Made by a program: the position numbers and the translations under genes | Source: Streptosporangium becharense | GTDB lineage: Bacteria > Actinomycetota > Actinomycetes > Streptosporangiales > Streptosporangiaceae | NCBI RefSeq assembly: GCF_014204985.1 | Contig: NZ_JACHMP010000001.1 | Coordinates: 6,758,001 to 6,822,000, forward strand | Reading direction: 5' to 3' | Length of the DNA stretch: 64,000 bases | The notes under the pieces: generated by a model | What the model saw: only the letters and a program-made list of their open reading frames with translations | Databases searched by the model: none | Told to the model about the DNA's origin: nothing | Shown here: positions 11,901-28,066 of the stretch, piece after piece | Position numbering within the stretch: position 1 is the first letter of the stretch | How the letters are laid out: each line of letters opens with the position of its first letter

Positions 11901-12371
11901 ACGGTGACCGACGACGACGGCGCCTCCACCACCGCCAAGAAGGCCCACGTGCTCGTCCTGGCCAGGGCCGGGTCGCTGAGCGGTGAGGGCCAGGTGGCGT
12001 CACCGGCGGGTTCGTGCCGGCTGAGCGCGGCGTGCGAGGCGGCGGGCAAGGCGGCCTTCGCCGTCACCGCCGGCTACCCGTCGCAGGGCGGCGCGCCCAC
12101 CGGTGAGCTGCGCTACGACGCCCCCGGGTTCACGCTGCGGCACACCGCCTACACGGTGCTCGCCGCGGCGGACGGCACGGCGACCCTGCGCGGCACCGGC
12201 CGGGTCAACGACACCACCGAGGTCACCTTCGAGATCACGGCGTCGGATCCGCACACCGACCGGTTCCGGTTGAGGGCGTGGGGCAAGGACGGCGGGCTGG
12301 TCTACGACAACCAGCGCACCGGCCCGGCACCGTCCGTGACCGGCACCGTCCGCGTCAGCGGCCGCGACTAA
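5937..12371 (+). CDS. Giant secreted multidomain protein: HAF repeats, PGAP1-like lipase, DUF11, choice-of-anchor-D and PKD domains
   Basis: A 2144-residue exported protein. I start at TTG 5937 because GGAG lies 8 nt upstream and it yields a clean signal peptide (about residues 1-35, cut near AIAA/SAP); GTG 5907 in the same frame lacks a ribosome site. Order: HAF-type repeats with NxxGQVAG units (about 57-360), an Ig-like segment, an alpha/beta hydrolase (about 488-735) with VALVHGW and AHSMGG (nucleophile Ser568), a PPC-like module (about 765-865), an Ig-like module with DDGTYG, a bacterial repeat domain (about 975-1040), a second HAF block (about 1042-1375), DUF11 (about 1383-1500), choice-of-anchor-D (about 1515-1610), several PKD modules with YGDGTGP (to about 2010) and a C-terminal beta domain. 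No LPXTG or transmembrane anchor is seen. Probable extracellular lipase/esterase; substrate unknown. The first kilobase has more A/T-ending codons than the rest. Confidence 0.85.
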   Translation: MSWLFSRTFARRIALPVLSAVVVGSLAPPTSAIAASAPAPSQKSAEEPPELQLTHLGALNTPDGNLGKINSKGQVAGYVWNAGTGVNNAVLFSGGSSVDIHAALGNPGRGSIAEDVSDDGTVVGRVAAQGGEPYADTFIYKDGKATRLGLLYGTSINNRGQVAGFGWIRDPDGSILRLEAFPDQFIDAYALNESGSVVGIADMDPDPATKKLRAFRTEPNETINLSRDFLSGDATYQETQAFDVNNRNQVAGYVKKADGGEIPAIWEDNDELHLQNTPHGGIVYAINDADVGAGVMFAADGARRAALYVGGKGIDLTDMVRAAGHDVTLRGATGINDLGQIAVVGRYGNTTGDHAFLLDLKLGKPRIESFDLETRLYPSTNWVPVPEKGTVEGNKVRATVTLHNPNVIPVYRTLEVVEDGTGKVVRNGRFGLTIPAGETVTKQVAWDTEGLAWRNGEPYSNRSVTARVLNGVQDESKDTKPIVIRPMPVALVHGWRSGAHTWGKYETFLKAAHPLLRGSAISTFVTGFNEAPQTMTYPLPLNASMLGEAVEYMRQFENAWRVNIVAHSMGGTISREYIARGMGQVEDKPVVNQLIEMGTPNQGSPCADMIVQWANGANVGVPWYPATWENTTEFMQEEFNPKTKNLKGVRVSNLVGNGYPLLCGTNVKGKPVPEPPGTPVDSDLFVPTWSARGDLTDTPTMKIRHTSMTGSQEAFNDYVKPRLASLLAGGSEDVPGLRGTAPTTGDKKAKTKATAAAAGAGDADSMFAFPEVTVEAGKTAIVPLDVPQGTAFGVIAALPETVGLLLRDPAGQPAAQYAAGSEEAKEVVQGLNVAAPQAGAWKLEITNTGAEPVQAALAAWVAGNPVTVTATTAVAEDGKATVTAAVVDGEQPVTGVPVRATLTLGDGTRKELTLKDDGNSGDGATDDGTYGVVTDELADGAYPVTVLAETAKGVRTTLAAVKVAKPDTREFELTLSAGPGGSVSASPAQEKYRAGTEVTLTATPEAGRILIGWVIDGQERGPGALTVVMDGPHTVQARFGSYTVTELGALPGYTADQTEPVALNDHGQVAATVGRGDDRRAVRWQDGVFTDLGGLSCEGSGKARCPSGATDINEAGDVAGWAEKWQNDVLREHAVVYRGGSVTDLHSSDDASTSSAAVGLNDTGQVLGRIGKWDGSDGYHWIWNGREFRRLPDTPLYTSSVGGGRINDRGMAAGAYVKEQDPSGKATGWGPAVHHDGVTTPLEIPECTREGGVAHDVNAGGLAVGEAMCDTDGKLTTHAYTWQDGRRTDLGEGRAYAVNDHGLVAGFTGQQNDTPVVWLQERRYNLQDLLPLPACAEGAVPCMRLISVADVNSSGQILARGFIKDGTGSQGERAYLLTPSAPRADLEVTHKVSSAEFGPGASVTWTSTVTNKGPDTATGVQLDMVVPAFSGGVCETSRGLCTPFKSGGGFRNTVKVLEPGGSATVTVTATIPAGAGDGVEVKTSATAHTLDVTDPARGNNRAEATATVRHALNRTAITFDPVRVGTSSAYPTEVKLTNRSSDPMKITAIKTEGPFTQTNDCPAAGATLEAGKTCLMWVSFAPTQVGAASGKLTVTTGGDQPSYVTTLTGQGKESNAVPQVDTPAGPLTGVVGQPFTLTVPFSDGDPADTHTAEVWWGVELGDFEPTSKVEVTPKAEGGGGTVTVTGTFRAPSEGVAAVMVTDSKGDTGYSDGIRYVIAAAPAANTAPVAAAGTDVELTVNEKLQRVVPVSDPGSASWTASVDYGDGTGPVAVTAQGAQITLEHRWASAGRYPVVVTVRDNGGLQTSVVFTATVVTGQTPNQAPEVTLSGPGKVTEGTAWKASGSLSDPGSKAWTATVDYGDGTGPRVLPVDGTRLKLEHVFTDDGERTVTVTVTDDRGATGTARLKVKAAGAAPEVKLEEPAADTVAAVGVPVTLKASFTDPGTADTHTGTWTVDGHKVAGALAGHEGKGSTIGTHTFTKPGRYPVTVTVTDDDGASTTAKKAHVLVLARAGSLSGEGQVASPAGSCRLSAACEAAGKAAFAVTAGYPSQGGAPTGELRYDAPGFTLRHTAYTVLAAADGTATLRGTGRVNDTTEVTFEITASDPHTDRFRLRAWGKDGGLVYDNQRTGPAPSVTGTVRVSGRD

Positions 12372-12725: not shown

Positions 12726-12977
12726 ATGGCCGGGTGGCAGGTTCAGGAGGCGAAGCAGCGCTTCAGTGAGGTCGTGCGGCGGGCGGTGAGCGAAGGCCCG
12801 CAGGTGGTCACCCGACATGGGGAGGAGGTGGCCGTGGTCATCGACATCGCCGAGTATCGCCGTCTCAAGGAGGCGGCCCCGGATTTCCGGCGGTTCCTTC
12901 TCTCCAACCCTGACTGGGAGGACGACGTTGACTTCCCCCGGAACCGGGACCTTCCCCGAGAGGTGGAGTTCGACTGA
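12726..12977 (+). CDS. Phd/YefM-family antitoxin
   Basis: An 83-residue antitoxin. The N-terminal half (WQVQEAKQRFSEVVRRAVSEGPQVVTRHGEEVAVVI) is the Phd/YefM DNA-binding and dimerisation fold; the acidic C-terminal tail (PDWEDDVDFPRN) is the likely toxin-neutralising segment. A perfect AGGAGG precedes the ATG. Its TGA overlaps the toxin ATG by one base, so the two are translationally coupled. It should repress its own operon through the ATCTAG palindrome just upstream, with the toxin as co-repressor, as in related systems. Confidence 0.9.
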   Translation: MAGWQVQEAKQRFSEVVRRAVSEGPQVVTRHGEEVAVVIDIAEYRRLKEAAPDFRRFLLSNPDWEDDVDFPRNRDLPREVEFD

Positions 12978-13399
12978 TGGGCGTCGGCTACCTGCTTGAC
13001 ACGAACGTAGTCTCTGAGGTGCGCAAACGGAACGGAAGCCCGAATGTCAGGGGCTGGGTCAGCGGGGCTCACGGGCCCACGCTTTATCTCAGCAGTCTGA
13101 CGGTGGGTGAGATCCGCTGCGGGGTGGAGCTCCGCAGGCGCAGCGATCCCGTGCAGGCGACGGTTCTGGAACGCTGGTTACACGCGCTTCACCGACAGTT
13201 CAGAGATCGCATCATTCCCGTCACCCCCGAGGTGGCGGAGGAATGGGGACGATTGAACGCCATCCGCCCGCTCCCGACGATGGACGCTCTGATCGCCGCG
13301 ACGGCGAGGGTGAACGGGTGGACCCTGGTGAGCAGGAACGTCAAGGACTTCGAAGGGACGGGCGTGTCAGTGGTCAACCCCTTCGAGCCGCCGCGTTGA
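12977..13399 (+). CDS. vapC: PIN-domain ribonuclease toxin (VapC/FitB-like)
   Basis: A 140-residue PIN-domain endoribonuclease, the toxic partner of the upstream antitoxin. The acidic metal-binding residues of the fold are in place: Asp8 in LLDTNVVSE, Glu45 in TVGEIRCG and Asp103 in PTMDALIAATA, followed by the usual C-terminal LVSRNVKDF segment. Such toxins cleave tRNA or rRNA when released from the antitoxin. The pairing of a Phd-type antitoxin with a PIN toxin matches FitAB/VapBC-like hybrids. Target RNA cannot be predicted from sequence. Confidence 0.9.
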   Translation: MGVGYLLDTNVVSEVRKRNGSPNVRGWVSGAHGPTLYLSSLTVGEIRCGVELRRRSDPVQATVLERWLHALHRQFRDRIIPVTPEVAEEWGRLNAIRPLPTMDALIAATARVNGWTLVSRNVKDFEGTGVSVVNPFEPPR

Positions 13400-13414: not shown

Positions 13415-13485
13415 ACCGAGCCCGGATGCCGGACGGGTCCCGTGCGGTGAAGGGGCCCGGAACCCGGCCGTGGGACGGGCTCGGT
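13415..13485. terminator. Long-range inverted repeat between convergent genes
   Basis: ACCGAGCCCG (13415-13424) pairs with CGGGCTCGGT (13476-13485), enclosing about 50 nt of GC-rich sequence that can fold further. It lies between the toxin stop and the GntR stop, touching the latter. Confidence 0.45.
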
Positions 13486-14228
13486 CAGCGGATGCCGACG
13501 TAGAACCGGGTCTGGTCGCTGCGGTGGAGCGCGTAGTAAGCCTCGAAGCGGGTGTTGTCGCCTGTCCACGCGACCGACTCGATGCCGAGCAGCGGCGTCG
13601 AGGCGGATACCTCGAGCAGTTCGGCGTCCTCGGGGTCGGGGAAGACGGCCTCGATCCACCGGTCGGCGGCGGCCGGTTCGATCCCGTACCGCCGTCGCAG
13701 CACGTCGTACAGCGACTGGTTCTCCAGCACGGCGCGCTCCAGGCCCGGCACCAGGCGCGCGGGCAGGGCGGTGTCGACGAGCAGCCACGGCCGCCCGTCG
13801 ACGCGGCGGAGCCTGCGCAGCCTGACGACCTGTTCCCCCTGGGGGATCCGCAGCAGGGCGGCCTCGCGTTCGTCGGCCTCGCCGAGCGACTGACCGATGG
13901 TCTGGGTCGTCACCCGGCGGCCCGACTCCCGCAGGTCGTCGGCGGAGCCGGACATCGAGCCGATGAACCGTACCTCGGTCTTGCGCGGTGAGACGAAGGC
14001 GCCGCGTCCCTTGACCTTATAGATCAGCTTCTGCTGCACGAGCTCGCGCAGGGCCTCCCTGACGACGGTGCGGGAGACGCCGAACATGTCGCTGAGGTCG
14101 GCCTCGGACGGCAGCGGCTGGTCCGGGCCCAGCTCGCCACTTTCGATCTGCGTGCGTAACGCCCGCATCATCTGCATCCACAACGGTTCGGCCCCGTCGC
14201 GGTTGAGGCGCGGATACGTCATCGTCAC
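13485..14228 (-). CDS. GntR-family regulator with UTRA domain (HutC type)
   Basis: A 247-residue transcription factor. A winged-helix GntR domain at about residues 15-80 (QPLPSEADLSDMFGVSRTVVREALRELVQQKLIYKVKGRGAFV) is followed by a UTRA ligand-binding domain (about 95-240). UTRA domains sense small molecules, often sugars or sugar phosphates. I chose GTG 14228 because GGAGG is 5 nt upstream; an ATG two codons on is possible. It is divergent from the CUT2 sugar operon, and copies of one inverted repeat flank both promoters, so it most likely represses both itself and the operon until a pathway intermediate binds. Confidence 0.9.
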   Translation of the reverse strand: MTMTYPRLNRDGAEPLWMQMMRALRTQIESGELGPDQPLPSEADLSDMFGVSRTVVREALRELVQQKLIYKVKGRGAFVSPRKTEVRFIGSMSGSADDLRESGRRVTTQTIGQSLGEADEREAALLRIPQGEQVVRLRRLRRVDGRPWLLVDTALPARLVPGLERAVLENQSLYDVLRRRYGIEPAAADRWIEAVFPDPEDAELLEVSASTPLLGIESVAWTGDNTRFEAYYALHRSDQTRFYVGIR

Positions 14229-14277
14229 GGGAACCTCCTTGGACGGCAGCGTCGAGAAAAGCATGCCATGCGAGCAG

Positions 14278-14315
14278 ACCTGTCACTACAGGATAGCAAC
14301 CTTGTAGTGACAGGT
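14278..14315. promoter_or_regulatory. Paired GntR operator sites (inverted)
   Basis: ACCTGTCACTACAGG (14278-14292) and its inverted counterpart TTGTAGTGACAGGT (14302-14315) face each other with a 9-nt gap. They lie 50-90 bp upstream of the GntR start, where its own promoter should be; TATCCT between them on the minus strand is a possible -10. Confidence 0.7.
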
Positions 14316-14378
14316 TGCCAGACCCGTCGTGGAGATCACCCGCCATATAACTGGTTTGTTACCCAAAGACAGTGACCC

Positions 14379-14407
14379 TTGACACTCAGGTAACGCCGAC
14401 TTAGCGT
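14379..14407 (+). promoter_or_regulatory. Sigma-70-type promoter of the CUT2 sugar operon
   Basis: TTGACA (14379-14384) is a consensus -35 and TAGCGT (14402-14407) a fair -10, with exactly 17 bp between. The predicted transcription start falls inside the third GntR operator, a classic repressible layout. Confidence 0.7.
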
Positions 14408-14433
14408 ACCTGTCACTACAGGCCTGTAATGAC
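14408..14433. promoter_or_regulatory. Third GntR operator, overlapping the transcription start
   Basis: ACCTGTCACTACAGG (14408-14422) repeats the first operator exactly, and the following CCTGTAATGAC (14423-14433) is a degenerate second half. It abuts the -10 box of the sugar operon. Confidence 0.7.
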
Positions 14434-14520
14434 TACGCCGCCCCGCCGCCTGTGAGCGATGAGTTCGCGGCCCTGCTCCCACCGCTCCGGCGGACCTGCT
14501 CTCTCTTCCTGGAGACCATG

Positions 14521-15630
14521 ATGCGTACCCGTCCCACATCCCGGCCCTGGCGTGCGGCCTCCGCGGCGTCGCTGACCGCCCTCGCGGTCCTGGCCGCGGG
14601 CTGCGGCTCCGGCGGCTCCGGAGCCGACACCAGCGCCAAGGAGTCGAGCGGAGACAAGCCGTTCATCGCCCTGAGCAACGGCTTCATCGGCAACGGCTGG
14701 CGCCAGACGATGATCGCCAAGTTCGAGGCGGCCGCCAAGCAGGCCCAGGCCGACGGCCTGATCAGCAAGTACAAGGTCGTCAACGCGCCGGGGGAGAACT
14801 CGGCGACGGAACAGGTCGCCCAGATCAAGAGCCTCCTGCTCCAGAAGCCGGACGCCCTGCTCATCGACCCGGCCTCGCCCACCGCGCTCAAGCCGGTCAT
14901 CCAGCAGGCGTGCTCCGCCGGAGTCACCGTCGTGGTCTTCGACTCCGCGATCGACTCCGAGTGCGCCTACGTGCTGCAGAACAGTTTCGTCGACTGGGCC
15001 ACGCACGCCGCCAAGCCGCTGCTGGAGGGCATCGGCGGCAAGGGCGATGTCATCGTCAGCCGGGGCGTCGTCGGCTCGCAGCCCGAGGCCGAGATGTTCG
15101 ACACCACCAAGAAGATCCTCGGCGAGTACCCCGGCGTGAAGACCGCCGCCACGGTGACGGGGATGTGCGACGGCGCCACTGCCCAGAAGGCCGTGCTCGG
15201 CGTGCTCTCCAGCGTGTCGAAGATCGACGGGGTCATCGGCTGCGGAGACGGATACGGCGTCGCCCAGGCGTTCGCCACGGCGGGCAAGCCCGTGCCCGCC
15301 GTGACGTTCGAGACCAACGGCCGCGCGCTGAACTACTGGAAGGACAACAAGATCGACAACGGCTCGGTGGCCGTCATGTCCGACCCCGGGCAGTCGGTCG
15401 CCGCGCTGTGGGAGGCGCTCGACCTGCTGGAGAAGCGCGACATCCCCAAGCGCATGACCTTCCCGATCGTCCTCATCGAGCAGAAGGACCGCGACGCGTG
15501 GGCCGGAGCGCTCAAGCCCGACGAGTACGCCGCCTGGCCCTGGACGCGTGAGCTGTTCCGTCAGCAGGTGAAGGCCGTGCAGACCGGTGGCGAGCCGGTC
15601 CGTCCGCCGATCCCGACGGCCGCCGGCTGA
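14521..15630 (+). CDS. CUT2-type sugar ABC transporter substrate-binding lipoprotein
   Basis: A 369-residue lipoprotein of the ribose/galactose-binding (Peripla_BP_4) family. The signal ends in the lipobox LAAGC with acylated Cys28, then a Ser/Gly-rich linker and a two-lobed binding domain starting FIALSNGFIGNGWRQTM. Landmarks are ALLIDPAS and VVVFDSAIDS in the cleft and VIGCGDGYGVAQAF in the second lobe. Two ATG codons are adjacent; the second (14521) has the better spacing (6 nt) from GGAG. First gene of a seven-gene operon under the GntR repressor. The ligand is unknown; the downstream enzymes suggest a short sugar, sugar alcohol or an AI-2-like molecule. It does not resemble LsrB closely. 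Confidence 0.9.
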   Translation: MRTRPTSRPWRAASAASLTALAVLAAGCGSGGSGADTSAKESSGDKPFIALSNGFIGNGWRQTMIAKFEAAAKQAQADGLISKYKVVNAPGENSATEQVAQIKSLLLQKPDALLIDPASPTALKPVIQQACSAGVTVVVFDSAIDSECAYVLQNSFVDWATHAAKPLLEGIGGKGDVIVSRGVVGSQPEAEMFDTTKKILGEYPGVKTAATVTGMCDGATAQKAVLGVLSSVSKIDGVIGCGDGYGVAQAFATAGKPVPAVTFETNGRALNYWKDNKIDNGSVAVMSDPGQSVAALWEALDLLEKRDIPKRMTFPIVLIEQKDRDAWAGALKPDEYAAWPWTRELFRQQVKAVQTGGEPVRPPIPTAAG

Positions 15631-15655
15631 CCGGGAGAAGCACCGGGAGAAGCAC

Positions 15656-17320
15656 ATGGGAGATCTCGTGATGCACGTCGACAACTTCACCCCCGGCCCC
15701 TCCGCCGCCCCGCGGGGGACGGGCCGGGGAGCCCCGGAGCGGCGGCCCGTCGTCACCGCGAGGGGCGTGACCAAGACGTACGGGCGCACCCGCGCGCTCA
15801 CCGGGGTGGACCTGGAGGTCGGCGCCGGCGAGGTGCTCGGCCTCGTCGGCCACAACGGCGCCGGCAAGAGCACCCTGATGCGTGTCCTCGCCGGACTCGA
15901 AGCCTGCGACGAGGGCACGGTCGCGGTCCGCGGTCAGGAGGTGCCCGACGGGACCGGGCCGCGGGCCGAGGCGTTCCGCGGGGTGCGGATGGCCTACCAG
16001 GAGACGTCGCTCTGCCCCGACCTCACGGTCGCGGAGAACATCTGGGTGTCCTCGCGCCGTAGCCTGCCGCGGCTGAGGTGGCGGCGGGCGGCCGGTGACG
16101 CCGCGCGGCGCCGGCTCGACGAGATGTTCCCCGGGCACGGCGTGACGGCCCGCGACAGGATCGAGGACCTCTCCCTCGCCCAGCGCCAGATGGTGGAGAT
16201 CGTCCGGGCCAGCCTGTGCGACCGGCTCGACCTGCTGATCCTCGACGAGCCCACCGAGTCCCTCGGGCCGGACGCGGCGCGCTCGCTGTACGCCTACGTC
16301 CGCGACCTCACCGCCCGCGGGGTCGCCGTCCTGCTCATCTCGCACCGCATCCGCGAGGTCCTCTCGGTGGCCGACCGCGTCGCCGTCCTGCGGGACGGGG
16401 CCGTCATCGCCGAACGTCCCGCGGCCGGGCTGGGCGAGCACGACGTGCTCACCCTGATGGGCGCCCAGGTCGCCGAGCGGACCGGGGACGAGCGGGCCGT
16501 GGCCGCCGCGGGCGCCTCCGGCGACCGCCCGGTGATGGCGGAGCTGCGCGGGGCCACCGGTCCCGGGCTGCGCGAGGTCTCCGTACGGGTCGGCGCCGGT
16601 GAGGTCGTCGGCCTGGCCGGGCTGGCGGGTCAGGGCCAGCAGGAGGTGCTCGAACGCCTGTGGCGGCCCGCGCGGCGCGACACCAGCGTGCACGGCACCC
16701 GCGCGTACGTGCCGGGCGACCGGCAGCGCTCCGGGGTCCTGCCGCTGTGGAGCGTCGCGGAGAACCTCATCGTGACCGCGATGCGGGGGATCGCCCGCCG
16801 GGGTGTGCGCCGCCCCGCGCAGGAGCGCGCGGCGGTGCGGGACTGGGTCGAGCGCCTGGCGATCCGGGGCGGCCCGGACGCGGCGATGACCGAGCTCAGC
16901 GGCGGCAACCAGCAGAAGGTCATCGTCGCCCGCGCGTTCGCCTCCGCCGCCGACCTCGTCCTGCTCGACGACCCCTTCCGGGGCGTCGACGTGCACACCA
17001 AGACCGACCTCTACCAGCTCATCCGCCAGGAGGCGGCGCGGGGCCGGAGCGTCGTCTGGTATTCCAGCGAGAACGCGGAGATGGTCCACTGCGACCGGGT
17101 CTACGTCCTGCGCGCCGGGCGGGTGGTGGCCGAGCTCACCGGCGAGGAGATCTCCGAGGAACGGATCATCGCCGTCTCGTTCGCCGAGGCCGACGAGGCG
17201 TCCGGTCATGAGGGCGGGACAGCCGGTCGTGACGGCGGGGCGTCCGGTCGTGACGACGGGACAGCCGGTCGTGACGGCGGGACGCCGGGTCGGCGGGACG
17301 GGGTGCCGAGCCGTGGCTGA
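15656..17320 (+). CDS. Sugar ABC transporter ATPase, double nucleotide-binding domain (RbsA/LsrA type)
   Basis: A 554-residue protein with two fused ATPase domains, the CUT2 arrangement. Domain 1 has Walker A GHNGAGKST (residues 65-73), a LSLAQRQM signature and Walker B LLILDEPTE. Domain 2 has the degenerate nucleotide site usual for this family (GLAGQGQQEVLERL in place of Walker A), an intact LSGGNQQK signature and VLLDDPFRGVDVHTK. It energises the two permeases encoded next. ATG 15656 has GGGAGA 5 nt upstream; that ribosome site is itself in a tandem duplication (ACCGGGAGAAGC twice). The C-terminus is an unusual Gly/Asp/Arg-rich tail encoded by 21-bp tandem repeats, absent from typical RbsA. 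It overlaps the next gene by 8 bp. Confidence 0.92.
   Translation: MGDLVMHVDNFTPGPSAAPRGTGRGAPERRPVVTARGVTKTYGRTRALTGVDLEVGAGEVLGLVGHNGAGKSTLMRVLAGLEACDEGTVAVRGQEVPDGTGPRAEAFRGVRMAYQETSLCPDLTVAENIWVSSRRSLPRLRWRRAAGDAARRRLDEMFPGHGVTARDRIEDLSLAQRQMVEIVRASLCDRLDLLILDEPTESLGPDAARSLYAYVRDLTARGVAVLLISHRIREVLSVADRVAVLRDGAVIAERPAAGLGEHDVLTLMGAQVAERTGDERAVAAAGASGDRPVMAELRGATGPGLREVSVRVGAGEVVGLAGLAGQGQQEVLERLWRPARRDTSVHGTRAYVPGDRQRSGVLPLWSVAENLIVTAMRGIARRGVRRPAQERAAVRDWVERLAIRGGPDAAMTELSGGNQQKVIVARAFASAADLVLLDDPFRGVDVHTKTDLYQLIRQEAARGRSVVWYSSENAEMVHCDRVYVLRAGRVVAELTGEEISEERIIAVSFAEADEASGHEGGTAGRDGGASGRDDGTAGRDGGTPGRRDGVPSRG
17202..17298 (+). repeat. 21-bp tandem repeats in the ATPase C-terminal tail
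   Basis: CCGGTC recurs with 21-bp spacing at 17202, 17223, 17244 and 17265, with a decayed fifth unit at 17286. Each unit encodes a seven-residue (S/A)GRDGGT-type repeat, so copy number could change without breaking the frame. Confidence 0.8.
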
Positions 17321-18272
17321 ACTTCTCGCCCCCGCCCTGCCGAGCCGGGCACGGATGCGCCGGACCGCCCCGGCCGTGGTCAGCGCCGCCGCCATGGTCG
17401 CCATGATCATCGTCTGCGCGTCGCTGCAGTCGGACGTCCTGACCGTGGCCGGCCTCTCGCTGGTCCTGTCGGCGACCGTTCCCCTGGTCATCGCGGCCCA
17501 GGCCCAGATGACGCTGATGTCGGTCGGCGACATCGACCTGGGAATCGGCAACTTCGTCGGCCTGGTCACCGTGGTCTCGGCGACCAGCCTGGTGTCGTCC
17601 CCGCTCGTCGGCGGCCTGATCCTCCTCGGGCTCGTCGCCGCATACGCCGTCCTCGGCACCCTCGTCCACCTGCGCCGGGTGCCGTCGCTCATCGCCACGC
17701 TCGGCGCGTCATTCGTCTGGCTCGGCCTGGGCATGTTCATCCTGCCGACCCCCGGCGGGACGACCCCGCAGTGGCTGGCGTCCTTCGGCGCGTGGCAGCC
17801 GGAGGGGTTCCCGGCACCGCTGCTGCCGATCCTCCTCGTCGCCGCGCTGGTCTACCTCCTGACCGTGCGCAGCACCGCCGGCGTCCGGATGCGCGGCCTG
17901 GGCAGCAACCCGGTGGCGCTGGAGCGCGCCGGGCTGCGTCCGCTGGCGGCCCGCGCCGCCGCCTACGCCACCGCCGGCGCGCTCGGCGTGCTGTCCGGTC
18001 TCGTCCTGGCCTCCCAGACCGGCGGCGGGGACGTGTCGTCGGCCTCCGGTTACACCCTCATGACGGTGGCGGCGGTGATCCTCGGCGGCGGGTCCTTCCA
18101 GGGCGGCGGCGCCGTGCCCTGGGGGGTGGCGATCGGCGGCGTGACCCTCGGCCTGGTCAGCGTGGTCCTCAGCCTGCTCGACGTGCCCACCAACATGCAG
18201 TCGGCCGTCCAGGGCGTGATCGTCCTGGCCGTGCTCGCCGGCCGCGTGGTGGTCGGGAAGGTGCTGCGGTGA
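17313..18272 (+). CDS. Sugar ABC transporter permease 1 (RbsC/LsrC type)
   Basis: A 319-residue BPD_transp_2 permease with about nine hydrophobic segments. Family landmarks: MTLMSVGDIDLGIGNFVGL early in the protein, IATLGASFVWLGLG, and the conserved tail VILGGGSFQGGGAVPWGVAIG. GTG 17313 overlaps the end of the ATPase gene by 8 bp (GTGGCTGA), so translation is coupled. It should form a heterodimer with the next permease. Confidence 0.9.
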   Translation: MAELLAPALPSRARMRRTAPAVVSAAAMVAMIIVCASLQSDVLTVAGLSLVLSATVPLVIAAQAQMTLMSVGDIDLGIGNFVGLVTVVSATSLVSSPLVGGLILLGLVAAYAVLGTLVHLRRVPSLIATLGASFVWLGLGMFILPTPGGTTPQWLASFGAWQPEGFPAPLLPILLVAALVYLLTVRSTAGVRMRGLGSNPVALERAGLRPLAARAAAYATAGALGVLSGLVLASQTGGGDVSSASGYTLMTVAAVILGGGSFQGGGAVPWGVAIGGVTLGLVSVVLSLLDVPTNMQSAVQGVIVLAVLAGRVVVGKVLR

Positions 18273-18321
18273 CCTCCCCGGCACGCCCGAAGGCGACGTT
18301 CTCCACGCTCAAGGAGATTCG

Positions 18322-19338
18322 ATGAACAACATCCGTGCGCTCGGCACGCGTCCGTGGCTCTGGAGCTTCGTCGCGGCGGTGCTCGTCTGGCTGACCATCC
18401 TGGCCATCTCCGGTCAGGGCGGCGGCCAGACGGTCTCCCTCGCCCTCTCGCTGGCGCCCTACCTGGTCGTCGTCGGGCTCGGCCAGATGCTCGTCATCAC
18501 CGCGGGGCCCGGCAACATCGACGTCTCCGTCGCGCCGGTGATCTCCCTCGCCGGGTTCGTCTCGGTCGCGGCGGCCGCGTCCACCGGCTCGGCGGTCGCG
18601 GGAGTCGCCGCGGGCGTCGGCGTGGGCCTCGCCGTCGCCGCGGTCAGCACCGTGGCGATCCTCGGCCTGTCCGTCCCGCCGATCATCGCCACGCTGGCTG
18701 CCGGGCTCGTCGCCTCCTCGGCCACGCTCTCGCTGGCCGACGGCTTCGCCGCCGTGCCGGATCCGGGGCTGCGGCAGCTGCTCAACGTGCGACCGGCGGG
18801 CGTGCCGCTCCTCGCGGTGGCCGTCGCGGCCGTGACCGCGCTGGTCATCGCGGTGCTGCGGCGCACGGTCTACGGTCGGTCGCTGATCGCGGTCGGGCAG
18901 AACCGCCGGGCCGCCGAGCGCGCCGGCGTCCCCGTCGCCAGGATCATCGCGACGACGTACCTGGCGAGCGGCGCGCTGGCCGGCCTGACCGGCTCGCTGC
19001 TGGCCGCCTACATCGCACCCTCCGCGGACCTGGGCACCCGCTACCTGCTCGACTCGGTGGCCGTGGTCGTCATCGGCGGGACGCTCATCTCCGGCGGGCG
19101 GGCCGTGCCCGTCGGCGTCTGGGGTGCGGCGCTCTTCTTCATCCTGCTCGACGGCCTGGTCAACCTCGTGGGCTGGAGCACCGCGGCGCAGAACCTCCTC
19201 AAGGGCGGTCTGGTGCTCCTGGTCCTCTTCCTCGCCGGTGGGGGTGGTCGCGCCGCCGACACGCCCCCCCTCTTCAGACGACGGCCGCGTCCGGCGGCCG
19301 CGACCATCACAACCTCAGGAGACGACACCCATGGCTGA
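18322..19338 (+). CDS. Sugar ABC transporter permease 2 (RbsC/LsrD type)
   Basis: A 338-residue BPD_transp_2 permease. It shows the family pattern [31 protein letters not shown] and [28 protein letters not shown] sits 5 nt before ATG 18322. The last bases of the gene overlap the start of the LsrF-like gene by 8 bp. Two different permeases in one CUT2 operon, rather than one homodimeric RbsC, is the arrangement of lsr, xyl-like and erythritol importers. Confidence 0.9.
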
Positions 19339-20209
19339 CACCGACGGTCTGCTCGACGCCCGCGACTTCGGGGCGGCCCCGGCCGTGACGGCCGGAGGCT
19401 TCCACGTCAAGGGCGCCCACGCGCAGGACTGGGGCCTGCAGAACCGCCTCTCGCGCATCTTCAGGCCGGACACCGGCCGGACCGTCATGCTGGCGTTCGA
19501 CCACGGATACTTCGTCGGGCCGATGGCCGGGCTCGAACGCCTGGACGTCAACATCGCCCCGCTGGTGCCCGCCGCAGACGCGATCATGATGACCCGGGGT
19601 GCGCTGCGCACGAGCATCCCCCCGCACAGCGGCGCCGGGATCGTCCTGCGCGCCAGCGGCGGCCCGAGCATCCTGCGCGAGCTGTCGGACGAGCACATCG
19701 CCCTCGACATCGAGGACGCCCTGCGGCTCAACGCCGCGGCCCTGGCCATCCAGGTGTTCATCGGCGGAGAGCACGAGTCGCGGTCGGTGGCGAACCTGGC
19801 CGCCCTCGTCGACGCGGGTCAGCGGCACGGCGTCGCCGTGCTCGGCGTCACCGCGGTCGGCAAGGACATGGTCCGCGACGCCCGGTACTTCCGCCTGGCC
19901 ACCCGGATCAGCGCGGAGATGGGTGCGCACATCGTCAAGACGTACTACGTCGAGGAGGGCTTCGAGACCGTCACCGCGAGCTGCCCGGTGCCGATCATCG
20001 TCGCGGGCGGGAAGAAACTGCCCGAGCTGGACGCCCTGACGATGGCCTACCGCTCCATCCAGGAGGGGGCCGCCGGCGTCGACATGGGCCGCAACATCTT
20101 CCAGAGCGAGAGCCCGGCCGGCATGCTCGCGGCGGTCCGCGCCGTCGTGCACGACGGCGCCAAGCCCGAGGAGGCCCACGAGCTCTTCCGGGAGAGCCTC
20201 GGCCGGTAA
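19331..20209 (+). CDS. LsrF-like class I aldolase/thiolase (DeoC/DhnA superfamily)
   Basis: A 292-residue TIM-barrel enzyme resembling LsrF along its whole length: [67 protein letters not shown] and the closing [12 protein letters not shown]. Lys203 in VKTYY is the Schiff-base position of this family. E. coli LsrF transfers an acetyl group from 3-hydroxy-2,4-pentanedione-5-phosphate to CoA in AI-2 breakdown; relatives are fructose-bisphosphate aldolases. The neighbours (GlpD-like dehydrogenase and FGGY kinase, no LsrG or LsrR) suggest it cleaves a related phosphorylated ketose or diketone. AGGAG precedes ATG 19331 and lies inside the upstream gene. Confidence 0.85.
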
Positions 20210-20235
20210 CGCAGCGTCCTGACCCCTCCTCCGAA

Positions 20236-20274
20236 GGGGGCGGGTTCCGGCGCGAGACCGCCGGGCCCGCCCCC
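20236..20274 (+). terminator. Intercistronic hairpin inside the operon
   Basis: GGGGGCGGG (20236-20244) pairs with CCCGCCCCC (20266-20274), in the 84-bp gap between the LsrF-like and GlpD-like genes. It may attenuate the distal genes or protect upstream mRNA; no promoter is evident after it. Confidence 0.5.
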
Positions 20275-20293
20275 GCCACCTCCGGGAGCTCCC

Positions 20294-21949
20294 ATGCCGC
20301 ACCACCAAGCCGGCCCCGAGGACGTCGACCTCGCCGTCATCGGAGCCGGCGTCAACGGGCTCGCCATCGCCCGGGACGCCGCCGCCCGCGGGCTGCGCGT
20401 CGTCGTCGTCGACCGAGCCGACCTCGGCTCGGGCACGTCGAGCACGTCGAGCCGCCTGATCCACGGCGGCCTGAAGTATCTCGAACGCTACGACTTCAAG
20501 CTCGTGCGGGAATCCATCCGCGAGCGGCACCTTCTCTTCCGCAACGCCCCGCACCTCGTCCACGACTACCCGATGCTCATCCCCTTCTACGCGGGCGACA
20601 GCAGGCCCGGCCCGCTGATCCGCCTCGGCCTGGTGGCGTTCGACGTGCTGGCCGCGGGCCGGCAGCGGGGACGCAGCCGCGGCCTGCCCGCCCGCGCGGT
20701 GGCCCGGCGGTGGCCCGCCCTGTCGACCCGCGGGCTCCGCGGGGCGGTGCTGTTCCGCGACGCGCAGGTGCCGTGGGCCGAACGGCTCTGCGTGGAGCTG
20801 TTCCTCGACGCCCGGCGGCTCGGCGCGCGGGTGCTCACCCACACGACGGTCACCGGGTTGCTGACCGAGGGCGGCCGCGTCGCCGGGATACGGATCGAGG
20901 ACAACCGGTCCGGCGAGCCGGCGGAGATCCGGGCCGCCATGACGGTGAACGCGGCCGGCCCGTGGATCGACAGGATCCTCGACGGGCAGGTGGCCAGCCG
21001 GCGCCTCAACGGCGGCACCAAGGGCAGCCACGTCGTCGTCGACCCGTTCCCCGGAGCACCCGACACCTGCATCTTCTTCGAGGCCGCGGCCGACCACCGG
21101 CCGATCTTCGTCTTCCCCTGGGCCGGCCGGTACGTGCTGGGAAGCACCGACCTGACCTACGAGGGCGACCTCGACGAGGTCGTCGCCAGCGACGCCGAGA
21201 TCGACTACCTGCTCACCGAGACCAACCGGATCTTCCCCGGCGCCGGCCTCACCCCCGGCGACGTGCTGTACAGCGTGGCCGGCATCCGCCCCCTGCCCTA
21301 CACCGAGGGGGTGTCGGACAACGCCAAGATCAGTCGCGGGCACACGGTGCACAGCCACGCCCCCGCCCACGCGGGGCTGCTCACGGTGGTCGGCGGCAAG
21401 CTGACGACCCACCGCGCGCTCGCCGAGGACGTCACCGACGAGGTGCTGCGGCTGCTCGGACGCGGGCCGCGGCGGTGCCTCACCCGTTCCCGGGCGTTCC
21501 CGGGCGCCGACACCGCCGACTGGCCGGCCTTCGCCGAGGACTTCATGCGCTCCTCGCCGCTCACCGCCGCGCAGTCGCGCCGGCTCCTCGACGTCTACGG
21601 TGTACGGGCACGCAGGGTTCTCGACCTCGCCGTCGCCGACCCCGAGCTCGCCGAGGTCGTGCACGAGGAGACCGGCGCGATCGCCGCCGAAGTGGTCGTG
21701 GCGGTACGCGAGGAGGGGGCCGTCACATTGGGTGACATACTGCTGCGACGTATGCTTGTCGGTCTCGGCGCCGACATGGGCCTGGACGCGGCGGCGGCCT
21801 GCGCGGACGTCGCGGTGCGCCACGCCGGCTGGGACGCCGGGCGGGCCCGTGCCGAGCTCGCCGGCTACGAAGCCGAGCTGCGGCGCTTCCGGCCCCGGAT
21901 CCTCGCCGCCTCGGCGACACCCCCCGGCAGTGACAGGAGGGCCTCGTGA
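20294..21949 (+). CDS. FAD-dependent glycerol-3-phosphate dehydrogenase family protein (GlpD/EryB-like)
   Basis: A 551-residue flavoprotein. The dinucleotide-binding motif GAGVNG is at residues 17-22, followed by the GlpD hallmark SSRLIHGGLKYLE, RDAQVPWAERL, VNAAGPWIDRI, the VGGKLTTHRALAEDV motif and a C-terminal DAO_C domain (from about residue 395). GlpD oxidises sn-glycerol 3-phosphate and passes electrons to quinone at the membrane; EryB, a close relative, oxidises erythritol 1-phosphate. Being coupled (4-bp GTGA overlap) to an FGGY kinase gene, it most likely oxidises the kinase product, a polyol phosphate. GAGCTCCC before ATG 20294 is a modest ribosome site. Confidence 0.9.
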   Translation: MPHHQAGPEDVDLAVIGAGVNGLAIARDAAARGLRVVVVDRADLGSGTSSTSSRLIHGGLKYLERYDFKLVRESIRERHLLFRNAPHLVHDYPMLIPFYAGDSRPGPLIRLGLVAFDVLAAGRQRGRSRGLPARAVARRWPALSTRGLRGAVLFRDAQVPWAERLCVELFLDARRLGARVLTHTTVTGLLTEGGRVAGIRIEDNRSGEPAEIRAAMTVNAAGPWIDRILDGQVASRRLNGGTKGSHVVVDPFPGAPDTCIFFEAAADHRPIFVFPWAGRYVLGSTDLTYEGDLDEVVASDAEIDYLLTETNRIFPGAGLTPGDVLYSVAGIRPLPYTEGVSDNAKISRGHTVHSHAPAHAGLLTVVGGKLTTHRALAEDVTDEVLRLLGRGPRRCLTRSRAFPGADTADWPAFAEDFMRSSPLTAAQSRRLLDVYGVRARRVLDLAVADPELAEVVHEETGAIAAEVVVAVREEGAVTLGDILLRRMLVGLGADMGLDAAAACADVAVRHAGWDAGRARAELAGYEAELRRFRPRILAASATPPGSDRRAS

Positions 21950-23481
21950 CAGCCCCGAGCACGTGTTACATCGGCGTCGACATCGGCCTCACGGCCTCCA
22001 AGGCCGCGGCCTTCGACAGCGAGGGACGGGAGCTCGGCGTCGTCCACGCGCGCACACCCCGGACCAGCGTGACCGCGCACCGGCACGACGTCGACATGCC
22101 CGCCCTGGCCGACACGGTCGTCTCGCTGCTCGGCGAGCTCGCCGGGAAGCTGGCCGCCGACGGCTACACGCCGGCCGGCATCGGCGTGGCGGCCCACGGC
22201 AACGGCCTGTACCCGGTCGACGCCTCGCTGCGGCCGGTCGGGCCCGCCATCGCGTCGTCGGACAGCCGGGCCCAGCACATCGTGGACGCCATCCCGGCGG
22301 AGCAGGCCCGGCGGCTGGCCGAGGAGACCGGCTCCATCCCGTGGGCGGCCCAGCCCGCGGTGCTCCTGCGCTGGCTGCACGACACCGAGCCGGAGGCCTA
22401 CCGGGCCACCCGGTGGGCCCTGTCCTGCAAGGACTGGGTCACCTCGCAGCTCACCGGCGTCGCGAGCGCCGATCTCAGCGACGCCAGCGCCTTCGGCCTG
22501 GTGGCGCTGGACACCCGTTCCTACAGCGCGACGGCGCTGGAACTGGTGGGACTGCCGGCCGCGGACCTCGACCGGTTCCCCCCGCTGCGGCGGTCCGGCG
22601 ACGTGGTCGGCGGGCTGACCGCCCGGGTCGCGGCGATCACCGGCCTTCCCGAGGGGCTGCCGGTGATCGCGGGGTGCATGGACTGCGTGGCGGCGACGCT
22701 CGGCGCCGGGGGACGGGACCCCGGAGACGTGACGATCATCGTCGGGACGTGGGCCATCAACGGGGTCGTGGTGCCCGCCCGCACCCCGGCGCCGGAGGTC
22801 ACGCTGAGCGCGCTGATGCCCGACGCCGCCACGATGCTGGCCATGGAGGTCGCGCCGACGTCGGCCGCCAACCTCGAATGGCTGGCGTCCACGGCGGTGC
22901 CGCACGCCCAGGCCGGCGGTGTTCCCGCGGCGGACCTGCTGCGGGAGGCGGCCGGCGTGCCCCCGGGTGCGGACGGCCTGATGTTCCTGCCCTTCGTCAA
23001 CGGAGCCCCCGAACACCCCGCCGCGTCGGGGACCTTCCTCGGCATCTGCGGCATGCACCGGCGCGGGCACCTCACCCGCGCGGTCATCGAGGGCGTCGCC
23101 CAGTACCACCGGGTCCAGCTCGACCGGGTCCTGGCCAGCGGGGCCGACATCGGGGACCGCCCCTGGCGGCTGGCCGGCGGCGGCGCCCGCTCGGAGGTCT
23201 GGGCACAGATCTTCGCCGACGTGCTGGGCCGCCCGGTCCGCCGCCAGCTCACCACCGAGCTGGGTGCGCGCGGGGTCGCCTCACTGCTGCCCGCCGCGCT
23301 CGGCCACGACGTCCGGCCCTGGTCGGTGAGCGACGAGGACGACCTGTGCGTGCGGCCCGGCCCGGACCGGGCCGCCTACCTCCGGCACTCCGAGACCTTC
23401 GACCGGTGCCTGGCCGGCATGGCGTCGGCGTGGTCGGAGATCGAGCGGTACCGCACCAGCGGTCCCGGCACGGACGGGTGA
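21946..23481 (+). CDS. FGGY-family carbohydrate kinase (LyxK/EryA-like)
   Basis: A 511-residue kinase of the FGGY family. It has the N-terminal phosphate loop VDIGLTASKAAAFD, the catalytic base Asp246 in AGCMDCVAATLGAG, the GTWAING turn, and the C-terminal nucleotide-binding LAGGGARSEVWAQIFADVLGRPV. The GTWA and TSAANLEW patterns are those of the L-xylulokinase/erythritol kinase branch. GTG 21946 has AGGAGG 6 nt upstream and overlaps the preceding stop. It should phosphorylate the imported substrate as the first catabolic step; substrate is not determinable from sequence. Confidence 0.9.
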   Translation: MTAPSTCYIGVDIGLTASKAAAFDSEGRELGVVHARTPRTSVTAHRHDVDMPALADTVVSLLGELAGKLAADGYTPAGIGVAAHGNGLYPVDASLRPVGPAIASSDSRAQHIVDAIPAEQARRLAEETGSIPWAAQPAVLLRWLHDTEPEAYRATRWALSCKDWVTSQLTGVASADLSDASAFGLVALDTRSYSATALELVGLPAADLDRFPPLRRSGDVVGGLTARVAAITGLPEGLPVIAGCMDCVAATLGAGGRDPGDVTIIVGTWAINGVVVPARTPAPEVTLSALMPDAATMLAMEVAPTSAANLEWLASTAVPHAQAGGVPAADLLREAAGVPPGADGLMFLPFVNGAPEHPAASGTFLGICGMHRRGHLTRAVIEGVAQYHRVQLDRVLASGADIGDRPWRLAGGGARSEVWAQIFADVLGRPVRRQLTTELGARGVASLLPAALGHDVRPWSVSDEDDLCVRPGPDRAAYLRHSETFDRCLAGMASAWSEIERYRTSGPGTDG

Positions 23482-23564: not shown

Positions 23565-24554
23565 TCAGGACGCGGCGGAGAGCAGGTCGAGAGCCTTCGC
23601 CAGGTCGGCGGCGCAGAGGTCGCGGATGAAGGCGTAGTGCTCCTGCGGGTACTGGCGGGGCCCGTGCTCCACCAGCATGATCAGGGAGAGGTAGAGGCGG
23701 TACAGGGCGATCCTGGCGCGGGCCGACGGGGTGAACTCCACGATGCCGCCCGCCTCGCGGTACCCGGCGACGATCTCATCGTCCTCGTTCAGCTCGCCGA
23801 AGATCGTCGGGGTGACGAAGTCGGCCAGCGGGTCGCCCCAGAACGCCCGCTCGTGGTCGATGATCGCCTGGACGCGCGGGCTCGCGCCGCGGGTCAGGAA
23901 GACATTGCCCGGCCAGGCGTCGAAGTGGACCAGGCGCGGCACCGTGACCTCGTCCAGGACGCCCGCGCTCGCCTCGACCACCGCGGAGATCTCCGCCGGC
24001 GGCCGGGGCAGCGTCAGGGCGTACCGGTCCGCGTCGGCCAGGACCGCCCCGACCATCGTCAGGAAGGCGGCCCGCCAGGTGGCGCCGGTCAGACCCGCGT
24101 GCGGGTAGCCGTACACGTCGCCGGTGACCGCGTTCAACCGGGCCAGGTGGCCGCCGAGCTCCCGGCGGAGGGCGTGCCCGTCCGCCTCGTCCACCCGGGC
24201 CTGGTTCCACGGCACCCCGTCGAGCGCCGACAGCACCAGGTAGTCGCCGCCCAGCACCGGATCGTCGAACCCGGCCCACAGCAGCTCGGGCACCGGCACC
24301 CCGGCGGGGCCCGCCAGCCCGTAGACCATGGCCTCGGTGCGCAGCAGGTCGCGCTCGTACCGCAGCTGTTCGAGCTCCGGCGGCGGTGACAGCTTCAGCA
24401 CCACCTCCCGCCCGTCGAGCAGCCGCAGCCGCCAGACGGCGTTGGCGAACCCGTCGGTCAGTTCCGTGGACGCCGCGACCCCGGTGCCCAGGGCACGCCG
24501 CGTCAGCGCGTCGAGCTCGCCGGGTTCGAGCGCGCGCTTGGTCCTGCTGTCCAT
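23565..24554 (-). CDS. APH-fold phosphotransferase
   Basis: A 329-residue protein of the aminoglycoside-phosphotransferase (APH)/choline-kinase fold. Lys54 in VVLKL is the ATP-binding lysine; the catalytic loop is HFDAWPGN (His210, Asp212, Asn217), and IIDHERAFWGDP carries the metal-binding Asp233. The family phosphorylates antibiotics, sugars, amino acids or choline. Lying 30 bp after galM at the tail of the cellobiose operon strand, a sugar kinase role is as plausible as drug resistance. AGGAGG precedes ATG 24554 closely (3 nt). Confidence 0.85.
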   Translation of the reverse strand: MDSRTKRALEPGELDALTRRALGTGVAASTELTDGFANAVWRLRLLDGREVVLKLSPPPELEQLRYERDLLRTEAMVYGLAGPAGVPVPELLWAGFDDPVLGGDYLVLSALDGVPWNQARVDEADGHALRRELGGHLARLNAVTGDVYGYPHAGLTGATWRAAFLTMVGAVLADADRYALTLPRPPAEISAVVEASAGVLDEVTVPRLVHFDAWPGNVFLTRGASPRVQAIIDHERAFWGDPLADFVTPTIFGELNEDDEIVAGYREAGGIVEFTPSARARIALYRLYLSLIMLVEHGPRQYPQEHYAFIRDLCAADLAKALDLLSAAS

Positions 24555-24584
24555 GCTCCTCCTGGTGATCGTCGGTGGGCCGGG

Positions 24585-25514
24585 TCAGACGGCGGCGATC
24601 GTCCAGGACGACTCGACCTTGTCGCCCGGCTGGAGCACGATCAGGTCGGTGCCGGAGTTGAAGGCGTCCGGCGGGCAGGTCATCGGCTCCACCGCCAGGC
24701 CGGAGTGGGCCAGGGCCGAGCCGGTGCACACCTGCACCCAGGGCAGCGCGGCGGGGTCCCAGCGCACCTCGACTCCGCCGCCGGGGCCGGTCACCCGCAC
24801 CCGGACCAGCCCGTCGGCGTCGGGCCGCAACCCGGTGAAGGCGTGGTCGACCGCGGTGGCGCCGACCGCGCGCGGGCCGGTGAAGTCGTACGGGGTGCCG
24901 GCGACGTCCTCCAGCGAGGCGGGCAGCAGCCTGTCGTCGACGAGCAGCACCTTCTCCGCCGGTACGTGCAGCTCATAGCCCTCGACGTCGCCCGGGAGCA
25001 GCCACGGGTGCGGCCCGCAGCCGTAGGGGGCGGGCAGGTCCCCGGTGTTCTCGGCGGTCAGTGTGGTGGTCAGCCCGTCGGGGGCCAGGGAGTACAGGAC
25101 GGTCAGGTCGAGGGTGAAGGGGTAGCCGGGGGAGGGCTCGACGGTGTGCGTCAGCCGCACGGAGTCGTGTCCCCGCCCGTCCCGGTGTCCGTCCGCGTCC
25201 CCGTCCCCGTCCTCGGCCGGTGACCGGTCCACCGCCCGCCACTCGACGTCGGCGACCAGCCCGTGCAGGGCGTTGCCACGATCCGGCTCGTTCACCGGCA
25301 ACCGGTGGGTCCGTCCGCCGAAGGTGTAGGCGGCGCCGGCGATCCGGTTGGGCCACGGGGCGAGCAGGGTCCCGCTGTAGTAGGGGATCGGCTCGTCCGC
25401 GGGCCAGCTGGTCACCAGGTCGCGCTCACCGTGCCGGAGCACGCGCAGGGCCGCGGCCCGCGTGGTGATCTCGGCGTGCATGGTGCCGTTGCGGAGGGTG
25501 AACTGCCGGGACAC
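24585..25514 (-). CDS. Aldose 1-epimerase (mutarotase) family protein
   Basis: A 309-residue galactose-mutarotase-like beta-sandwich enzyme, which interconverts alpha and beta anomers of free hexoses in the cytosol. Visible motifs: the N-terminal LLAPWPNRI substrate loop, NALHGLV with the conserved His, CGPHPWLLPG with the catalytic His, and the C-terminal VEPMTCPPDAFNSG. It starts at GTG 25514 with AAGGA upstream. It follows cebR by 84 bp on the same strand and precedes the phosphotransferase, so it may serve the glucose released by the beta-glucosidase. Confidence 0.9.
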   Translation of the reverse strand: MSRQFTLRNGTMHAEITTRAAALRVLRHGERDLVTSWPADEPIPYYSGTLLAPWPNRIAGAAYTFGGRTHRLPVNEPDRGNALHGLVADVEWRAVDRSPAEDGDGDADGHRDGRGHDSVRLTHTVEPSPGYPFTLDLTVLYSLAPDGLTTTLTAENTGDLPAPYGCGPHPWLLPGDVEGYELHVPAEKVLLVDDRLLPASLEDVAGTPYDFTGPRAVGATAVDHAFTGLRPDADGLVRVRVTGPGGGVEVRWDPAALPWVQVCTGSALAHSGLAVEPMTCPPDAFNSGTDLIVLQPGDKVESSWTIAAV

Positions 25515-25598
25515 GGGTGTCCTTTCGGTGAGGGGACGGGGGGAGGGCGGGGGGCCGCCCCCGGCCGGGGCGGAAGGCTCCGGCCGCCGGGGAACCGG

Positions 25599-26606: not shown

Positions 26607-26641
26607 GTGCGTTAGCCCCCATCGATGGATTACGCCGGTCC

Positions 26642-28062
<1,421 letters not shown>

Positions 28063-28066
<4 letters not shown>

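Follow-up and report, generated by a model that had tools for sequence, protein, structure and literature searches.

Which compound is broken down by an operon that carries the enzyme LsrF among partners foreign to the lsr system? Databases name LsrF for the reaction it performs on autoinducer-2 (AI-2), so its presence is easily taken for quorum-signal processing. We analysed a 64,000-nucleotide stretch of the soil actinomycete Streptosporangium becharense (contig NZ_JACHMP010000001.1, positions 6,758,001 to 6,822,000), hereafter the window, in which an LsrF gene lies in one operon with genes for a CUT2 importer, a GlpD-like dehydrogenase and an FGGY kinase, divergent from a GntR gene. A first-pass annotation had named these five components and called the operon a hybrid of the lsr and erythritol (ery) systems; all five are confirmed by their domains. 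On sequence comparison the operon is better read as an LsrF joined to a kinase–GlpD module that elsewhere has other aldolases. This recruitment of a true LsrF is a real and conserved arrangement, and appears to be new. A true LsrF here keeps company with other partners in a catabolic operon, and no LuxS is found in the genome, so the LsrF label may mislead outside lsr operons.

LsrF and its partner enzymes

The gene at 19331–20209 (forward strand, like all genes of the operon) encodes a member of the class I aldolase-fold thiolase family. With 471 bits, its product clears the curated cut-off of 297 of the LsrF model NF006081, and its alignment with E. coli LsrF shows 58.7% identity across 286 amino acids. 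The aligned active-site residues D57, H58, K203, G226, G227, D251, G253 and R254, named in an excerpt of PMC2728841, are all kept. They comprise the Schiff-base Lys203, Asp57, the LsrF-specific Asp251, and the phosphate-binding H58, R254 and glycines. Lys203 had already been reported from the bare sequence, and the alignment places it among a full set of checked residues. Position 251 of a rhizobial DhnA aldolase is Val, not Asp. The lsr half of the hybrid is thus stronger than first stated as far as LsrF is concerned, and does not extend to the kinase, the regulator and the binding protein, which are not of lsr type. According to an excerpt of PMC6410053, citing Marques 2014, LsrF converts 3-hydroxy-2,4-pentanedione 5-phosphate (P-HPD) and coenzyme A (CoA) to dihydroxyacetone phosphate (DHAP) and acetyl-CoA. 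The window LsrF may carry out the same CoA-dependent thiolysis. The window genome contains genes resembling 1-deoxyxylulose-5-phosphate synthase; neither these nor the absence of LuxS decides the substrate.

The dehydrogenase gene (20294–21949) encodes a flavin adenine dinucleotide (FAD) enzyme with DAO (PF01266, 194 bits) and DAO_C (PF16901, 80 bits) domains. It falls under both GlpD models (333 bits against a cut-off of 360, and 315 against 352). In contrast, the EryB encoded in a rhizobial ery locus exceeds the cut-offs of the same models with 871 and 731 bits, and a 26-row tree, whose rows were hand-picked like those of the kinase tree, joins EryB and E. coli GlpD and separates them from all other rows, the window included, by a 100/100 branch. 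Of the earlier label GlpD/EryB-like, the GlpD domains stand; membership in the GlpD models and kinship with EryB do not. The alignment shows that H233, R317, R332 and K354 of E. coli GlpD are kept; together with R54, we take these to be its catalytic or phosphate-binding residues.

The kinase gene (21946–23481) overlaps the dehydrogenase gene by the predicted four bases, seen as GTGA at 21946–21949. Its product has FGGY_N (PF00370, 148 bits) and FGGY_C (PF02782, 63 bits) domains. The best NCBIfam model is XylB (196 bits, cut-off 380), and the LsrK and GlpK models give 110 bits (cut-off 528) and 78 bits (cut-off 590). A 32-row tree places the kinases found with LsrF and GlpD, the window's included, in a clade of 17 rows (97/94), together with alphaproteobacterial kinases whose genes likewise stand next to a GlpD gene. 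The LsrK-type kinases make up a separate clade (100/100), outside which the window kinase lies. EryA joins a second long-branched kinase (98/96, long branches flagged), and these two together are the sister group of the 17-row clade. The ery half of the hybrid is therefore weak: EryB groups with GlpD, the window enzyme belongs to another clade, and kinship with EryA is unsure. A database search with the kinase found 132 proteins at E ≤1e-60 (7999 candidates scored). Among the 120 of these matches that were listed, the organism-named ones are actinobacterial, and several are called L-xylulokinase by one source, by name only.

The operon resembles the E. coli lsr operon (lsrKR-lsrACDBFG) in its CUT2 importer, FGGY kinase, true LsrF and divergent regulator. 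It differs in lacking LsrG, an LsrR-type regulator, an LsrB orthologue and an LsrK-clade kinase, and in its added GlpD-like dehydrogenase. The reported absences of LsrG and LsrR hold in the window, where the best match to E. coli LsrG reaches 19 bits (E 1.9) and no match to E. coli LsrR exceeds 28 bits. With kinase, regulator, binding protein and LsrG all failing, a simple lsr operon is ruled out. The locus of R. leguminosarum WSM1325, which we take to be an ery locus by its gene order, likewise has an FGGY kinase followed by a GlpD-family dehydrogenase. Unlike the window, it carries a TIM-barrel protein, an RpiB-type isomerase and a triose-phosphate isomerase, and has no aldolase in that gene run. 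The domain scan of the eight operon proteins finds no isomerase family, in line with the stated lack of erythrulose-phosphate isomerases; together with the position of EryB in another clade this rules out an ery operon. An aldose epimerase in the same scan belongs to a gene beyond the operon. A glycerol operon is also ruled out, by the GlpK score of the kinase and by two other GlpD paralogues in the genome, despite the GlpK-like gene near some of the related loci described below.

Recurrence of the kinase–GlpD–LsrF trio

The trio was called where GlpD and FGGY genes above 150 bits lie within 9 kb of LsrF, and 136 LsrF loci were classed, the window being L106. Twenty-six of them carry the trio: the window, 16 Streptosporangiaceae-type or Micromonospora loci (two of them repeats), six Microbacterium-type loci, and three on Shinella and Sagittula plasmids. 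A neighbourhood search, as proposed in the first-pass annotation, shows that the trio recurs outside the family. In the family sample, LsrF is found in 13 of 150 genomes, 11 with the full operon and two with an LsrK-type locus. Apart from the window genome, the whole gene order is kept in 10 of the 12 LsrF-bearing genomes and replaced by an LsrK-type locus in two, one of which is cut off right after LsrF; such conservation exceeds what chance would give. The genus of genome G704 has LsrF in 4 of 60 genomes (two trio, two LsrK-type). The class of G826, a Hyphomicrobiaceae bacterium, has LsrF in 6 of 385 genomes and no trio within the stretches covered. In the phylum sample LsrF occurs in 40 of 396 genomes, with no trio among the 26 of 39 others examined, several on short contigs. 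Among 80 loci kept out of 583, 10 have the trio. These frequencies show that the trio is rare and patchy.

All 26 trio rows and eight of nine LsrK-linked rows (L125 lies outside) fall in one 44-row part of the LsrF tree (support 87), a quick tree with long branches flagged from which L126 (a fragment) and L106 were dropped. A separate 64-row part is rich in class II aldolase or RubisCO-like protein (RLP) partners. The window LsrF groups with the Microbacterium-type trio, beside LsrK-linked LsrFs; E. coli LsrF has Sagittula LsrF as its sister (96), with Shinella LsrF close by. Mapped on this tree, the trio label needs three changes, two of them forced by starred branches. On the GlpD and kinase trees it needs three changes each, all three forced, and a single change is found in 0% of 200 bootstraps. 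Three changes on each of three trees suggest repeated assembly, although they may also be one gain and two losses.

Two Microbacterium observations may be added. In the genome of Microbacterium halotolerans the trio is accompanied by an LsrK-type LsrF locus at a different site. Another Microbacterium LsrK–LsrF locus (L076, 6528–10891) includes genes for a D-2-hydroxyacid dehydrogenase, which possibly serves in the place of LsrG, and for a GntR regulator.

Importer and regulator

The importer is identified as CUT2 by a Peripla_BP_4 binding protein, a double ATPase and BPD_transp_2 permeases. The substrate-binding lipoprotein (14521–15630; 177 bits) is followed by an ATP-binding cassette ATPase with two ATPase domains (15656–17320; PF00005 in two stretches), which resembles AraG, XylG, RbsA and LsrA with all best models under cut-off. 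Permease 1 (17313–18272; PF02653, 63 bits) lies in an open reading frame from 17208; judged by the sequence, the likelier start is GTG at 17313, overlapping the ATPase stop. Permease 2 (18322–19338; PF02653, 79 bits) overlaps the LsrF start, read at 19331. An LsrB-like binding protein had been reported absent. There is indeed no LsrB orthologue (32.5 bits, cut-off 384), but a binding lipoprotein exists. It is 85–91% identical to 10 family orthologues, and its top PDB match is 4PE6 (652 bits), whose title gives no ligand name. The nearest solved binding proteins after 4PE6 are sugar-type CUT2 proteins, some of them presumably bound to polyols. Neither the Foldseek nor the VIA list distinguishes binders of ribose from those of polyols or other sugars. 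The structure model has a predicted local distance difference test score of 85.8 with a 16-row alignment and 50 without an alignment. A mention of 4PE6 in an excerpt of PMC6429110 is filed under cathepsin S and is irrelevant to the binding protein.

The divergent GntR/HutC-type regulator (13485–14264, reverse strand) has UTRA (PF07702, 130 bits) and GntR (PF00392, 67 bits) domains, and its gene recurs in those family and Microbacterium-type trio loci whose sequence extends to this point. In the gap between it and the operon, a putative operator-like palindrome, CCTGTCACTACAGG, occurs three times, at 14279–14292, at 14301–14314 (reverse, one mismatch) and at 14409–14422. In a 15-base form with up to three mismatches, the palindrome has five matches in the window, three of them in this gap, against 1.05 expected by shuffling. 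We compared the gap between regulator and binding protein in 21 trio loci. At the same mismatch limit, two or three sites are found in 16 of 16 Streptosporangiaceae-type gaps, the window included (two seem repeats, L117 of L009 and L121 of L011), and one site in two of five Microbacterium-type gaps, with none in the other three. A scan of the whole genome with the degenerate pattern CYTGTMRYKACARG finds three places only, all before the operon, and the reversed control pattern finds one forward and one reverse place; a looser consensus could give more matches. If this confinement holds, the operon would be the only target of the regulator.

Related modules and earlier descriptions

At L110 and L111, kinase and GlpD genes of the same wider clades are accompanied by genes for a class I aldolase (DhnA), a GMC oxidoreductase and an aldo/keto reductase. 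L110 adjoins thiamine genes, and its aldolase scores 101 bits on the LsrF model against the cut-off of 297. The gene list of these loci appears to match a rhizobial set of transporter, regulator, aldo-keto reductase, GlpD, fructose-bisphosphate (FBP) aldolase and xylulose kinase, named "Putative Lsr system in Rhizobiales" in an excerpt of PMC3420918 (2012). This set is the closest prior description of the operon. It has in common with the window a CUT2-type transporter, GlpD, an aldolase and a xylulose-type kinase. Unlike the window, L110, its apparent match, has DhnA in place of LsrF, and the reductase and oxidoreductase in addition.

On the window's side of the GlpD tree (85/90) are relatives from Shinella WSC3-e and Rubrobacter that stand beside a class II FBP-type aldolase. 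Their clusters (L098, 6623–18984; L099, 2721–13018) hold E1 alpha and beta and lipoyl proteins of a thiamine pyrophosphate-dependent set, the GlpD-like enzyme, an FGGY kinase from outside the 17-row clade, the class II aldolase and a CUT2 importer. They probably serve another sugar pathway. The binding protein of the Shinella trio is 43% identical to the Rubrobacter one.

No paper describing the trio was found by title in the open-licence literature, which is weak evidence of absence. The salvage of 5-deoxyribose, or DHAP shunt, employs a kinase and a class II aldolase and yields DHAP and a two-carbon unit. It resembles the scheme proposed below in its kinase and aldol-type step on a deoxypentose, but has an isomerisation step (excerpt of PMC6079011) instead of a flavin oxidation.

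Proposed pathway and its rivals

From the observed gene content, families, active-site residues, trio recurrence and conserved palindromes, we infer each reaction, the reaction order, the regulation and the substrate as follows. Under GntR control, the CUT2 importer would take up one small sugar-like compound. FGGY-family kinases phosphorylate a terminal CH2OH, and the kinase would do so on the imported compound. GlpD oxidises the carbinol beside CH2OPO3; the GlpD-like flavoenzyme would act likewise, as GlpD does on glycerol 3-phosphate, and pass the electrons on. LsrF would then split the oxidised product into DHAP and a two-carbon fragment, most likely acetyl-CoA, in which case the LsrF substrate would be P-HPD. 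The operon shows no aldehyde dehydrogenase, reductase or other aldehyde-handling family in the domain scan, which suits an acyl-CoA product. The same series of import, phosphorylation, FAD oxidation and LsrF cleavage had been put forward in the first-pass annotation; it is the best reading found and its trio recurs in further lineages, while the analogy with ery has lost weight. We prefer, tentatively and with less than even confidence, the GntR-controlled import and breakdown of one sugar-like compound by these three enzymes, most likely to DHAP and acetyl-CoA.

The chemistry points to a candidate substrate. P-HPD is CH3-CO-CHOH-CO-CH2OP and 1-deoxypentulose 5-phosphate is CH3-CO-CHOH-CHOH-CH2OP. 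Removal of two hydrogens at C4 turns the second into the first, so one GlpD-type oxidation links both exactly. The imported compound would then be a 1-deoxypentulose (1-deoxyxylulose or an isomer), that is, the two-electron-reduced AI-2 skeleton. In lsr, P-HPD is reached by LsrG from the phosphorylated form of 4,5-dihydroxy-2,3-pentanedione (P-DPD), and GlpD would thus stand in for LsrG. This fuller scheme, in which AI-2 destruction and 1-deoxy-sugar salvage meet at P-HPD and which was assembled more than once, we consider rather unlikely. If LsrF does act on P-HPD here, the operon gives 1-deoxy-sugars a degradation route that can be tested, and suggests what the solved binding protein 4PE6 binds; to our knowledge, little has been printed on the catabolism of 1-deoxy-sugars.

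Several observations weigh against this pathway. The natural stereochemistry of GlpD suits an L-configured carbinol rather than D-1-deoxyxylulose, so a 1-deoxy-L-pentulose would fit better than 1-deoxy-D-xylulose. R54 of GlpD is Lys in the window enzyme, as it is in the Microbacterium-type and Shinella trios and some related plasmid modules; in Sagittula it is Arg. LsrF relatives that stand beside neither kinase nor GlpD have the same active site, which thus marks the family and does not fix the substrate. A GlpK-like gene (52% identical to E. coli GlpK) stands upstream of the regulator in six of the 26 trio loci, five of them distinct (L115, L116, L119, L120 and L121/L011, the last two apparently the same); it was not found in the window's own stretch. 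In addition, a class II aldolase-type gene (334–1298 bits to known examples) is found in nine of nine trio loci outside the window's group: six Microbacterium-type, two Shinella and one Sagittula. It has a short-chain dehydrogenase/reductase (SDR) domain in Shinella and none in Sagittula; as a guess, this domain could oxidise a deoxy-alditol to the ketone. The window's group has no class II aldolase-type match above 90 bits, and two full-length relatives are encoded elsewhere in the window genome (237 and 236 bits, 35% identity). Since the three-step route does not need this gene and relatives exist elsewhere in the genome, the pathway may have a fourth enzyme, and the argument for a complete operon is weaker than the palindrome count suggests. 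Finally, the pairing of kinase and GlpD relatives with other aldolases points to plain retro-aldol chemistry.

Such chemistry would suit a C5–C6 alditol that is phosphorylated and oxidised to a ketose 1-phosphate, with LsrF as a simple retro-aldolase giving DHAP and glycolaldehyde or glyceraldehyde. In the trees, the Sagittula kinase and GlpD each have their counterpart from the DhnA-aldolase version as sister (98/98 and 100/99), GlpD relatives are found alongside class II aldolases, and the solved binding proteins next nearest after 4PE6 are of sugar type. The class II aldolase-type gene of the nine trio loci has in some of them an SDR part that could handle the aldehyde; in the operon itself no such enzyme is seen. 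We regard this polyol route as possible, if doubtful, given that LsrF keeps its specific Asp251 and stands in the AI-2-type part of its tree.

A 2-pentulose such as L-xylulose, phosphorylated at C5, oxidised at C4 and split by LsrF into DHAP and glycolyl-CoA, would agree with the preference of GlpD for an L sugar, the L-xylulokinase names of kinase relatives and XylB as the best, if below cut-off, kinase model. It seems improbable to us, because pentulose 5-phosphates could join the pentose phosphate pathway more directly and the operon contains no dedicated glycolyl-CoA enzyme. Scavenging of AI-2 (DPD) by a diverged lsr system, with the GlpD-like enzyme as an accessory, would explain the lsr-like set of importer, FGGY kinase and true LsrF; the genome has no LuxS, yet AI-2 made by others would be usable. 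The kinase lies outside the LsrK clade, the binding protein and regulator are not LsrB and LsrR, LsrG is missing, and separate LsrK-type LsrF loci exist in the same family (L125, L126) and in the trio-bearing Microbacterium genome (L032, L163), which makes AI-2 scavenging highly improbable.

Other LsrF relatives and neighbouring genes

Forty-one further loci with LsrF relatives, from many phyla (for example L015, L028 and L055), pair LsrF with a class II aldolase/SDR-type gene and show no strong kinase or trio match. In Chlorobaculum (L034, 7829–13147) and similar Chlorobi, the LsrF gene is flanked by genes for a bifunctional class II aldolase/SDR of PRK08324 type and an RLP (PF00016, 189 bits in L034), and a further SDR follows; the RLP is matched near LsrF in 11 loci. 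An excerpt of PMC5893883 ties the Photo RLP of C. tepidum to stress response and sulfur oxidation, and LsrF may be a lead to the reaction of Photo RLP.

Just upstream, at 12726–13399 of the window, a Phd/YefM antitoxin and a PIN-domain protein form a type II toxin-antitoxin pair. A 2154-residue protein with lipase-like, DUF11 and PKD domains is encoded at 5907–12371. Past the operon, on the opposite strand (23565–28258), are genes that seem to make up a sugar cluster of their own; they encode an APH/fructosamine-kinase-like protein, an aldose 1-epimerase, a LacI regulator and a GH1 glycosidase.

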